64,000 nt of DNA from Spirochaetales bacterium. GTDB lineage: Bacteria; Spirochaetota; Spirochaetia; Treponematales; Treponemataceae. Below the pieces are notes generated by a model that was not told the origin of the DNA, did not search any database, and saw only the letters and a list, made by a program, of their open reading frames with translations. Where the stretch lies: positions 124,001-188,000 of the forward strand of contig JAQXNX010000033.1 of assembly GCA_029098225.1 (NCBI GenBank), given 5' to 3'. Shown here one piece after another: positions 8,157 through 25,954 of this stretch. Numbering within the stretch: the stretch's first letter is position 1; every line of letters starts with the position of its first letter. The translations under genes were made by a program, and so were the position numbers.

Positions 8157-8198
8157 CTAGAATGAACCAGCAACAGCAACTGCACAGGCAACGGTACA
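8157..8198 (-). pseudogene. Relic of the 3' end of a second GGGtGRT gene
   Basis: Read on the minus strand, these 42 bases are 13 codons plus TAG encoding CTVACAVAVAGSF, exactly the last 13 residues of the intact GGGtGRT gene (8349-8390). The two copies differ only at synonymous places: GCA/GCT, Ser AGT/TCA (three bases) and TAA/TAG. No further upstream coding sequence remains; the relic stops at the hairpin repeat starting at 8198. This suggests a diverged homologous gene was replaced or deleted. Confidence 0.75.
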
Positions 8199-8260
8199 TG
8201 CCTAAAATAGCAAATGCGTTAAAAAAAACAGTCCCACAGGACTGTTTTTTAGCATTTACT
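8198..8260 (+). repeat. Dispersed hairpin repeat, copy A (bidirectional terminator)
   Basis: About 63 bp matching 11065-11127 in inverted orientation. Its core is a 12-bp stem AAAAAACAGTCC/GGACTGTTTTTT (8223-8234 with 8239-8250), flanked by AAATGC and GCATTT arms. Relative to copy B the closing A-T pair is G-C, a compensatory change. On the plus strand it could encode a peptide beginning MPKIANALKK, as could copy B, but this is probably incidental. It lies between convergent transcription units. Confidence 0.7.
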
Positions 8261-8262
8261 TA

Positions 8263-8340
8263 CTAAATGGCTCGCCCGATTTATCGGGCGCCTAAGGTTG
8301 TACCGTTGCTTTAGAGACTTCGAAAAACAACGATACAACT
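8263..8340 (-). other. Structured 3' region of the GGGtGRT operon
   Basis: Two hairpins follow the stop codon on the minus strand: GTTGTATCGTTG with CAACGGTACAAC (8328-8339 with 8298-8309, 11 of 12 pairs) and GCCCGAT/ATCGGGC near 8274-8289. The inner segment at 8296-8309 is also a perfect 14-bp complement of coding DNA at 8380-8393, so two foldings exclude each other. No strong T-run follows until the repeat at 8198-8260. Confidence 0.5.
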
Positions 8341-10825: not shown

Positions 10826-11064
10826 CAGATTTATTTTTGGCTGCTCGCATAGTCTCGCAGCTTGAGCCATTCTTCCGATGAACCTAAATGTGTAAGGCCG
10901 CTGGCGGCCGGTGTTCTATAGCAGGGCGTTAAAAAAATTGCACCGCAATTTTTAGCCCTACTACTATCCCGCTGTCGCAGCCCTGTTTTTAACGGTTCCT
11001 CGATTTTAGGCTGCTCGCGGTTCCTCGATTGTAGCGCTCGATAAATCTCGCGAGCTATTTTTAA
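10826..11064 (+). other. Gene-free, hairpin- and repeat-rich spacer between the phosphatase gene and argG
   Basis: No convincing gene. It contains GGCCGC/GCGGCC (around 10895-10909), a larger hairpin AGGGC...AAAAATTGC/GCAATTTTT...GCCCT (10923-10957), a 13-bp direct repeat CGGTTCCTCGATT at 10993-11005 and 11018-11030 inside an imperfect tandem of about 24 bp, and GCTCG/CGAGC at 11036-11055. A 98-codon minus-strand reading frame crosses it but has no family resemblance and overlaps the repeat copy B. It looks like an insertion-prone intergenic region. Confidence 0.6.
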
Positions 11065-11127
11065 GGTAAATGCTAAAAGACAGTCCCGATGGACTGTCTT
11101 TTTTAACGCATTTGCTATATTTGGCAT
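11065..11127 (-). repeat. Dispersed hairpin repeat, copy B (bidirectional terminator)
   Basis: Inverted copy of 8198-8260. Core stem GACAGTCC/GGACTGTC with flanking A- and T-runs. The change from A-T to G-C at the outer pair relative to copy A keeps the stem intact. It sits between convergent genes and reaches the last base of argG, forming TAATG with its stop codon. Confidence 0.7.
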
Positions 11128-12392
11128 TACTCAGTTGGTCTTTTTTTCAGGTTCTTGCTTTCTGCAATTGCCTGACCTTCGCCAACACTCTGCTCCATCA
11201 TAGCGCGAACCTTGAGTGGAAGTCCTGCAAGTGTAATGAAGCCCTGAGCATCCTTGTGGTTGTAAAGTTCACCAGTTGTGAATGAAGCAATTGATTCGTT
11301 GTAGAGGCTGTACTTTGAACCAGAACCTGCACCACGGATTGCGCCCTTCACTACCTTTACCTTTGCCCAGCCTGTTACAGTTTCTTCTGCCTTGTCCATA
11401 AAGGCCATGCAGGAATCCATAAGAGTTGTGAACCATTTTCCTTCGTAGATAAGCTCTGCCATGCGGAGGCTTACCTGCTGTTTGTAGTGGTAAGTTTCAC
11501 GGTCGAGACAGATGTGATCCATCATTCTGTGAGCGAAGTAAAGAATTGCTCCACCCGGTGTTTCGTAAACACCACGGCTCTTCATACCAACAAAGCGGTT
11601 TTCGCAGATATCTACAAGACCAACACCGTTGCGTCCGCCGATTACGTTGAGCTCGTTAAGAAGGTCAAGAGAGTTCATCTTCTTGCCGTTGAGTCCAACA
11701 GGAATACCCTTTTCAAAGTCGATTGTTACATATTCACCGTCGTTTGGAGCTTCCTCCGGAACTGTTGTATTTTTAAGCATGTGCTTGTAATTTGGCTCGT
11801 TTTCTGTCTTCTCGAGCTCGAGACCTTCATGGCTGAGATGCCAGATGTTCTCGTCGCGTGAGTAAGACTGATCTTTTTTCATTGGAACTTCGAGGCCGCG
11901 GTCTTCAAGATATTTGATTTCTGCTTCGCGGCTGTCCATATTCCATTTGTCATCGCGCCATGCAGCGATTACCTTGATATCTGGAGCAAAAGCCTTGATT
12001 GCAAACTCAAAGCGAACCTGGTCATTTCCCTTACCTGTTGCACCGTGACAGATTGCAACTGCCTTTTCCTGACGTGCATATTCTACAAGGATTTTTCCGA
12101 TAAGAGGACGTGCAGTAGAAGTACCGAGAAGATATTCATCCTCGTAAACTGCATTTGCCTTGAGTGCCGGCCAGATGTATTCTTCAATATATTCCTGACG
12201 TGCATCTACAACGTAACATGCGCTTGCACCTGTTTTGAGGGCGCGGGATTTGATTGCTTCCCAATCATCTCCCTGTCCTACGTCGATACAAACTGCGATT
12301 ACATCGTAGTCATAGTTTTCTTTGAGCCATGGAATGATTACTGTTGTATCAAGTCCACCTGAATAAGCAAGAACTACCTTATCTTTTGCCAT
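11127..12392 (-). CDS. argG: Argininosuccinate synthase
   Basis: Joins citrulline and aspartate with ATP to give argininosuccinate, the penultimate step of arginine synthesis. The 421-residue product has the N-type ATP pyrophosphatase P-loop VVLAYSGGLDTTV (about 6-18), DVGQGDD near 38-44, GATGKGNDQVRFE near 115-127 and GRNGVGLVDICENRFVGMKSRG near 253-274, all diagnostic. GAGAGG lies about 7 nt before ATG 12392. It stands alone; no other arg gene is in the window. Candidate ArgR sites overlap its promoter. Higher use of GC-ending codons than neighbours suggests high expression. Confidence 0.97.
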   Translation of the reverse strand: MAKDKVVLAYSGGLDTTVIIPWLKENYDYDVIAVCIDVGQGDDWEAIKSRALKTGASACYVVDARQEYIEEYIWPALKANAVYEDEYLLGTSTARPLIGKILVEYARQEKAVAICHGATGKGNDQVRFEFAIKAFAPDIKVIAAWRDDKWNMDSREAEIKYLEDRGLEVPMKKDQSYSRDENIWHLSHEGLELEKTENEPNYKHMLKNTTVPEEAPNDGEYVTIDFEKGIPVGLNGKKMNSLDLLNELNVIGGRNGVGLVDICENRFVGMKSRGVYETPGGAILYFAHRMMDHICLDRETYHYKQQVSLRMAELIYEGKWFTTLMDSCMAFMDKAEETVTGWAKVKVVKGAIRGAGSGSKYSLYNESIASFTTGELYNHKDAQGFITLAGLPLKVRAMMEQSVGEGQAIAESKNLKKRPTE

Positions 12393-12469
12393 ATATAACC
12401 TCTCTTGGTGGTTTCGTATTTCGACAAGCTCAATAAGCGTGTGATTTGCTTACTCAACCACCATATTTT

Positions 12470-12515
12470 TGCATAAATATACAAAAAATATACAATTTTA
12501 TGCAAAAATATGCAA
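12470..12515 (-). promoter_or_regulatory. argG promoter overlapped by ARG-box-like palindromes
   Basis: Minus-strand TTGCAT (12510-12515), 17-bp spacer and TATATT (12487-12492) form a promoter. Two 14-bp imperfect palindromes, TGCATAAATATACA (12470-12483) and TGCAAAAATATGCA (12501-12514), plus a third inexact one at 12489-12504, cover it. Their AT-rich centre and TGnAT/ATnCA-like ends resemble ArgR/AhrC operators, fitting arginine repression. Confidence 0.6.
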
Positions 12516-12540
12516 GAGATTATATAAAATTAACTGTAAA

Positions 12541-12750
12541 CCTGGCTCCCAGTCGTGATACACAGGCATGTATGCAAACAATCTTTTGATTATTAAGTCA
12601 GTTAATTTGGCGCGAAGGAGTGAGACACAGGGCAAAAAGACTTTTTTTGGGGATGCCGCGTGAGCGGCATTAATATGGTTTCCATACCCCAAAAAACGTC
12701 TAGCGGATTATTCCGCGTTTTTGACCTGTGGATCACGACTGGAAGCCAAG
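12541..12750. repeat. Structured intergenic element with long terminal inverted repeats (MITE-like or RNA)
   Basis: The 26-bp ends at 12541-12566 and 12725-12750 are near-perfect inverted repeats. Inside, CACAGGGCAAAAA (12626-12638) pairs with TTTTTGACCTGTG (12718-12730). Within that, 12639-12652 pairs with 12687-12700 (13 of 14) and encloses two hairpins: ATGCCGC-GTGA-GCGGCAT (12653-12670) and TATGG-TTT-CCATA (12674-12686). A separate hairpin GCGGA/TCCGC lies at 12703-12716. No plausible coding region. It fills the spacer between the unknown gene at 12766 and the argG promoter. Confidence 0.65.
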
Positions 12751-12765
12751 ATATCTGGATTTATT

Positions 12766-13350
12766 TTACAGTTCATCGATTTTTTGCATAAAATTATCTT
12801 CAGTGATTTGTATATTTATGCTGTTGGCCGGCAGGGTCAGGGTGAAGGTGCCGTCTTCATTGGGATTTATTGTGAAGGCTTGTTTGAGGTGTGAACTGGC
12901 ATAGGCTTTAATAAACTCCAGGGCAAGCTTCTGGCGGCGGTGAGATCGGGATTTGTTTTCAAGGGAAGTTTCGAGTTCTTTTAAGTAATCCGGCAGTCGG
13001 CTAAGGAACTCATCTATTTCTGGAAGCGGGTTATAGGGAAATTTTGCGTCGCAGAGCTTTACATAGTCTCCTGATTTTTTTTGCAAAAGACTTCCTTTTA
13101 TAGAAGACTGAATGAAAAGGCGGAGTTTTATATTAGATGTAAGAGCAATTTCCAGAGTACAGTAAGATTCAAAATATTCAACATTTATTTTTGCTTCTGG
13201 ATGAGAAGCCGAAAATTCGTCAAATGCTGAATGACAATTTTCCAAACACAAAGGTTCTGCATCTGTGCGGACCATATTTTTATGCTGCAGGTGAACAAAA
13301 TGTTCTTTCCAGAAATCTGCTTCATTATCAATATATTTTTGTGCGGACAT
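12766..13350 (-). CDS. Uncharacterised protein at the end of the guaB-moxR-VWA operon
   Basis: I do not recognise this 194-residue product. It has no signal peptide or membrane segment, so it should be cytosolic. The first half carries scattered acidic and aromatic residues; residues about 120-150 are rich in Lys/Arg/Glu and probably helical (LKELETSLENKSRSHRRQKLALEFIKAYA), and the C-terminus looks like a small beta-rich domain (TFTLTLPANSINIQI). An in-frame ATG at 13362 overlaps the SD of the preceding gene end; 13350 is preferred because GGAG is 7 nt upstream. It starts 15 bp after the VWA gene, so it may assist the MoxR/VWA pair. Confidence 0.6.
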   Translation of the reverse strand: MSAQKYIDNEADFWKEHFVHLQHKNMVRTDAEPLCLENCHSAFDEFSASHPEAKINVEYFESYCTLEIALTSNIKLRLFIQSSIKGSLLQKKSGDYVKLCDAKFPYNPLPEIDEFLSRLPDYLKELETSLENKSRSHRRQKLALEFIKAYASSHLKQAFTINPNEDGTFTLTLPANSINIQITEDNFMQKIDEL

Positions 13351-13365
13351 TTTAATCTCCATCTC

Positions 13366-25803: not shown

Positions 25804-25954
25804 GCATCCGTGCGCGACCGCTAACGCGGTGTTTTTGGAGGAGTTTGAAAAAAGTACTTCCCTGTACTTTTTTCAACTGCACTTTTGCCGTTGGCAAAAC
25901 TGCTTATTTCGCGCATCCATGCGCGACCGCTAACGCGGAGTTTTTGGAGGAATT
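25804..25954 (+). repeat. Insertion-like cassette with 42-bp direct repeats and two hairpins inside the exporter operon
   Basis: A 42-bp unit (25804-25845) recurs at 25913-25954 with three mismatches; each contains GCGCGACCGCTAACGCGG and TTTTTGGAGG. Between them lie a perfect 13-bp stem TTGAAAAAAGTAC/GTACTTTTTTCAA (25845-25876), which resembles a terminator, and a second stem around TTTTGCC/GGCAAAA (25879-25903). The second repeat copy supplies the SD of the next gene. A TTG-started reading frame of 37 codons (25845-25958) with its own SD from the first copy ends over the next ATG; whether it is translated is unknown. Confidence 0.7.

Follow-up and report, generated by a model that had tools for sequence, protein, structure and literature searches.

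A stretch of 64,000 nucleotides from a Spirochaetales bacterium of the Treponemataceae (the window; C33:124001–188000 in contig numbering) carries, beside argG, one copy of a conserved folded core of 143 nt (12607–12749, + strand), recognised by covariance-model match, alignment, covariation and strand bias. The core belongs to a clade-restricted, previously uncatalogued, Treponemataceae-specific family, which is MITE-like in its spread and a constrained structured element afterwards. The copies that move are ISAs1-type MITEs; the window copy is a flipped, end-less member of the family with a putative function.

The fold of the window copy is real and far beyond chance. Over 12541–12750, its folding energy gives z scores of −7.92 (+ strand) and −9.88 (− strand) relative to dinucleotide shuffles, with none of 200 shuffles as low. 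A sequence-only reading had described 26-bp outer arms, a second CACAGG arm, a three-way junction, a hairpin with a GTGA loop (12654–12669) and a separate hairpin (12703–12716), and all of these features are present; the left outer arm (12541–12566, CCTGGCTCCCAGTCGTGATACACAGG) matches the reverse complement of 12725–12750 at 23 of 26 positions. The lack of coding potential that it reported also holds, the ORF list containing no convincing frame within 12541–12750. The 26-bp outer stem exists as sequence, but it is not the unit that it was taken for: it is private to the window copy, being absent from the orthologous copies of three other genomes (G092, G076, and G457), and the conserved unit is 12607–12749. 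Since comparative data place the conserved unit there, the base stem that phylogeny supports is formed with the second left arm (12616–12631 with 12725–12740). The proposed switching between two CACAGG arms was abandoned; the extra arm is found only in the window copy, and the competing arms arose through local inversion in a single genome and do not represent a conserved bistable fold. No Rfam 15 family was found for 12541–12750, with nothing at gathering score and nothing meaningful at E up to 10, and a described RNA family is thereby rejected; a search of open papers on Treponema MITEs and repeats likewise returned nothing on the 143-nt core family, in agreement with the earlier statement that no described element matches.

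The covariance-model match for the window core (C33:136607–136749 of the window's genome, G000; 162.7 bits) lies on the written (+) strand, which is the R strand of the family, and all parts of the core given here are on that strand. The left side of the base stem (12607–12611) pairs with 12745–12749, and its sequence differs among copies with full compensation (GGC/GCC, TGC/GCA, GAC/GTC, and others). The left motif GCGAAGGAG (12612–12620) is near-invariant in sets of 26 and 124 cores and, together with GACTGG[G/A]AG on the right, makes up internal loops that contain a tandem G·A mismatch. The left side of the lower stem (12616–12631, pairing with 12725–12740) is copy-specific in sequence and always complementary to its partner; the left side of the upper stem (12638–12652) pairs with 12687–12701, with one conserved T·C mismatch. 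Between and beyond the arms of the upper stem lie the hairpin TGCCGC-GTGA-GCGGCA with a GNRA/GNNA loop (12654–12669; fold, strand bias, and covariation), the single-strand or weak-hairpin motif ATAGTTTC, which reads ATATGGTTTCCA in the window copy (12672–12683; core alignments), and the side hairpin GCGGATTATTCCGC of the three-way junction (12703–12716; covariation). The right motif CGACTGG[G/A]AGC closes the core together with the right side of the base stem (12736–12749; core alignments and covariation). A pseudoknot between ATAGTTTC and the loop of the side hairpin, an idea drawn from one sequence, receives no support from mutual information. The downstream neighbour is argG (11127–12392, − strand), with a conserved promoter/leader between it and the element, and the upstream neighbour is a gene of unassigned function (12766–13362, − strand), which ends in a stop codon 16 nt away from the core.

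The core is conserved by pairing, not by the sequence of its stems. On a plain MAFFT alignment 97.8% of cells are paired, and the covariation score is 0.387 against 0.124 in shuffles; slid-partner controls (0.04–0.08) destroy the signal. Double changes are seen at 29 of 47 pairs, compared with 16.3 in shuffles (0 of 500 as good), and at 39 of 47 when a larger set was fitted to the model, counts that overstate the number of events because the copies are not independent. In mutual information across 124 cores, the helix pairs rank first. Stems may change completely; what is kept is GCGAAGGAG, [C/T]GACTGGGAGC, ATAGTTTC, and the GCGC side hairpin. The upper stem (helix 6; 14 pairs) is 99.2% paired with 3 G-U cells of ~960, thus almost purely Watson–Crick covariation, and so few G-U cells are very low for an RNA. 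Wobbles and mismatches counted on the R strand are strongly asymmetric (G-U 77 versus A-C 20; G·A 109 versus T·C 8), a bias that identifies the + strand of the window as the folded strand, which the GNRA/GNNA loop favours as well.

Searches by blastn with the stretch at 12541–12750 returned more copies, both within its own genome and across dozens of genomes of the same genus. A covariance model (R1) built from 26 copies found 14 in the window's genome (excluding a fifteenth row, which is an antisense match), 40 in G145, 28 in G044, 22 in G004, and 12–14 in each of three further genomes. By the same model, whose E-values are rough and whose targets include many MAGs, 27 of 393 genomes of the phylum carry the core; these belong to three genera of a single family, with 1 to 40 copies per bearing genome (gut and rumen Treponema). 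A pattern scan covered 84,980 species genomes, and all matches listed are records of Treponema, Spirochaetaceae, Spirochaetales, or Spirochaetia, and T. bryantii, Treponema sp. JC4, and Treponema sp. C6A8 are among them. Scans of viral contigs, phages, and plasmids with the pattern came back empty, which ruled out phage or plasmid cargo. About 20 of the 28 copies in G044 are bunched within ~100 kb spanning a contig junction (L103–L107), and these clustered copies bear long outer repeats (AAGGTCCGCGTGGGAAGACGC); integron-like arrays were considered for them and discarded, the two clusters examined sitting among ordinary genes (pyrE, rsmI). The earlier reading had left the choice between a mobile MITE and a structured RNA, and both checks that it proposed gave positive results; the family combines dispersed copies, some with TIRs and target duplications, with massive covariation, and each half of that alternative is thus borne out in part.

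In some genomes the core lies inside MITEs with ISAs1-type ends (CAGGGC....GCATTATAAA), and target duplications of 8–10 bp flank TIR copies in G145, G010, and the window's genome. The TIR of the G145/G130-type copies (CAGGGCAAACGCATTATAAA) matches the IS ends (CAGGGCAAACGCATGTAAAA) around an ISAs1 transposase, which in G145 scores 349.7 bits against NCBIfam NF033564 (cut-off 70; ISAs1-type DDE) and of which that genome has 24 matches. The transposase is absent from 13 of the 14 element-bearing genomes searched, including the window's genome; the window copy has no ISAs1-type TIR ends and, with no ISAs1 partner in its own genome, is a MITE relic at best. Derivatives of 149 bp and ~100 bp that lack most of the core keep their TIRs and TSDs, and since these still moved, the core is not needed for ISAs1 transposition. 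Most genomes have lost the ISAs1-type ends and carry the core in intergenic gaps; such ends recur across the core tree, a distribution that fits an ancestral MITE with decaying ends. A second end type (CGGAAATCARTTTT) is present in the window's genome, with one TSD of 9–11 bp. A second MITE (GGATGTCCAATAAGT..ACTTATTGGACATCC) is nested in the core at six loci of G145 (L149–L152, L157, and L158), and the resulting six 335-bp copies then spread as one unit.

The history of the window copy can be read at the argG locus, which is empty in G104 and G015 and carries a core co-directional with argG in G092, G076, and G457; the window core has the opposite orientation. It is identical to the G092 argG-locus core, inverted, at 142 of 143 positions (99.3%; next copy, 90.8%), and the neighbouring upstream gene is ~75% identical between the same two genomes. 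The segment at 12541–12566 (+ strand), read as the reverse complement, agrees with the right arm of the G092 ortholog at 24 of 26 positions, and by this comparison of sequences it is an orphan right arm, left over on the argG side when the core inverted in place. A second in-place flip (L139) is well supported by reciprocal best matches and a third (L140) is probable; the case for a fourth (L178) is weak because it is matched best by another copy. A copy in G166 has collapsed into a perfect palindrome. Template switching between inverted-repeat arms homogenises the arms and inverts spacers (PMC8604942) and yields Watson–Crick-only compensations (PMC8794818); perfect stems can be kept in part by template switching without selection.

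Other repeats were seen at this locus and elsewhere in the window. The argG loci of G003, G151, and G168 have a different repeat at the same site (L211, L208, and L224, respectively), with TTAAGTCG ends and a terminator-like hairpin (GCTCCTTTG..CAAAGGGGC). The argG leader (12436–12525) contains TTGCATATTTTTGCATAAAATTGTATATTTT, a sequence that many species conserve and that resembles a promoter overlapped by tandem ARG-box-like palindromes. A 94-nt inverted pair (84%; 8198–8291 and 11034–11127) with a AAAAAACAGTCC..GGACTGTTTTTT hairpin occupies two intergenic gaps of the window and has relatives in G147 (L019) and G151 (L208), forming another dispersed terminator-like repeat family; two 42-nt copies (93%; 25804–25845 and 25913–25954), 109 bp apart, have a GACCGCTAACGCGG hairpin.

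Cores that have lost their TIRs appear to be retained. Three sets of TIR-less orthologous cores are identical at 140/140, 142/142, and 142/143 positions, with flanking genes at 74–90%, and the first two are shared between species that lack both ISAs1 and Y1 transposases. Identical TIR-less orthologs without a transposase, taken together with the core-deleted MITEs that moved, point to a constraint that has nothing to do with mobility by ISAs1. Recent exchange between sister species could also account for the cores that are 100% identical, as identity falls off gradually to either side of them. TIR-less cores often lie a few bases past stop codons: among 94 such copies a sense stop is found within 60 nt in 41, an antisense stop in 38, and both (convergent) in 20, and none of 14 TIR copies lies between convergent stops. 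Of 95 TIR-less copies, 69 have AAA/TTT flanks on both sides. A hairpin set between A- and T-runs where convergent genes end is arranged like a two-way terminator, and such a terminator would tolerate being flipped and would disfavour G-U, since a G-U pair becomes A·C on the other strand.

We favour, at about even chances, the explanation that a DNA-dynamic, MITE-borne structured element was exapted as a bidirectional 3′-end/terminator element. ISAs1-type transposition would have seeded the family; template switching from arm to arm during replication would then flip the core and repair the arms, and the host would keep the core because its hairpin between A/T tracts could serve as a two-way transcription end (terminator or 3′-end stabiliser). 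A protein or a tertiary contact may read the fold as well, as the conservation of the loop motifs suggests. The base stem of the core is short and interrupted by loops, and a terminator scan showed no clean T-run at the core end of the window copy. Counting against this explanation, the window copy lies between two co-directional, not convergent, genes; the terminator scan scores inner hairpins only; and the upkeep of stems without selection and the possible recent exchange, both described above, weigh on the same side. It also counts against this explanation that no transposase was matched to the CGGAAATCARTTTT ends or to the long outer repeat of G044. Recurrent ORF clusters near the copies proved to be generic ABC proteins, argG-locus orthologs, and translations of other repeats, and a dedicated adjacent gene was rejected.

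Two other explanations are each clearly less probable than exaptation. The family may be purely selfish, with no host role and a fold that is a palindromic by-product kept by template switching and recent spread. The copies with TSDs are real and have a cognate ISAs1 transposase in G145, in-place inversion and the perfect palindrome of G166 show active template switching, and the upper stem is nearly without G-U pairs; however, template switching would erase the loop and mismatch motifs, yet these hardly vary across 124 cores, TIR-less copies remain whole and identical in species without the transposase, and the movement of core-less derivatives means that ISAs1 transposition does not preserve the core. 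With a similarly modest probability, the core would be an undescribed functional fold that a dedicated Treponema protein reads, in RNA or single-stranded DNA form, with the transposon ends as disposable vehicles; if so, what replicates would be the structured module, and the MITEs would do no more than carry it.

It is less probable again that the core is a structured RNA of the R strand (a protein-binding 3′-UTR element, a processing signal, or an unknown ribozyme) hitch-hiking on MITEs. The R-strand bias in wobble pairs and G·A mismatches, the GNRA/GNNA loops, and the conserved internal-loop motifs with tandem G·A would suit such an RNA, but orientation to genes is nearly even and flips between sister species, no promoter is common to the flanks, as a free-standing RNA gene would need, upper-stem G-U pairs are far rarer than is expected of RNA, and Rfam holds no relative. 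The version with a fixed sense orientation in 3′-UTRs, which G004 alone had suggested, is rejected by the 41/38 split and the flips. Integron attC sites and IS200/REP hairpins are structure-recognised recombination sites of a comparable kind. It is improbable that the R strand is folded by an invertase or single-strand recombinase which also flips the core and spreads TIR-less copies: the two to four loci with in-place inversion, the one strand favoured for folding, the clustered copies of G044, and a fixed structure with free stem sequence are in its favour, but Y1 transposases are absent above cut-off from all 14 bearers searched and present in some element-free genomes, among the genes next to the copies no recurrent family resembling a recombinase could be recognised, and template switching explains the inversion without an enzyme.

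Among known systems, ISAs1-type MITEs and the small mobile repeats ERIC, Correia/NEMIS, RUP, and BOX (reviewed in PMC10969869) are likewise short, non-coding, intergenic, and mobilised in trans, with transcripts predicted to fold and with TIRs and target duplications in some copies. Unlike these, the Treponema core is complex, evolves by compensation, has conserved loop motifs, outlasts the loss of TIRs and transposase, flips in place, and occurs within at least two kinds of outer end. Dispersed terminator-like repeats share its resemblance to an intrinsic terminator, but the Treponema hairpin is ~143 nt with a three-way junction, and its role in termination is putative. REPs and REPINs with RAYT (PMC3116915) are also extragenic hairpin repeats with compensatory changes, a strand-specific fold, and within-genome spread; the Treponema core is several times longer and branched, its mobile copies use DDE-type ISAs1 ends, and a REP/RAYT system is rejected, no Y1/RAYT transposase being found above cut-off in the 14 bearers. 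Structured RNAs in Rfam share the strong covariation, GNRA-type loop, and internal-loop motifs, but the Treponema core is almost without upper-stem G-U and has no fixed orientation to genes. The conserved ends of the core are TTGGC/GCCAA, not the RYYYAAC/GTTRRRY boxes of integron attC.

With dozens of copies per genome and orthologs between sister species, the family is a natural experiment on the evolution of palindromic DNA, in which stems are rewritten blockwise, orientation is flipped, Watson–Crick pairing is kept almost without G-U intermediates, and loop motifs are frozen. It is also a warning that, where template switching is active, covariation alone is no proof of an RNA gene. For gut and rumen Treponema, it is a candidate case of transposon debris that has become a shared gene-end signal.
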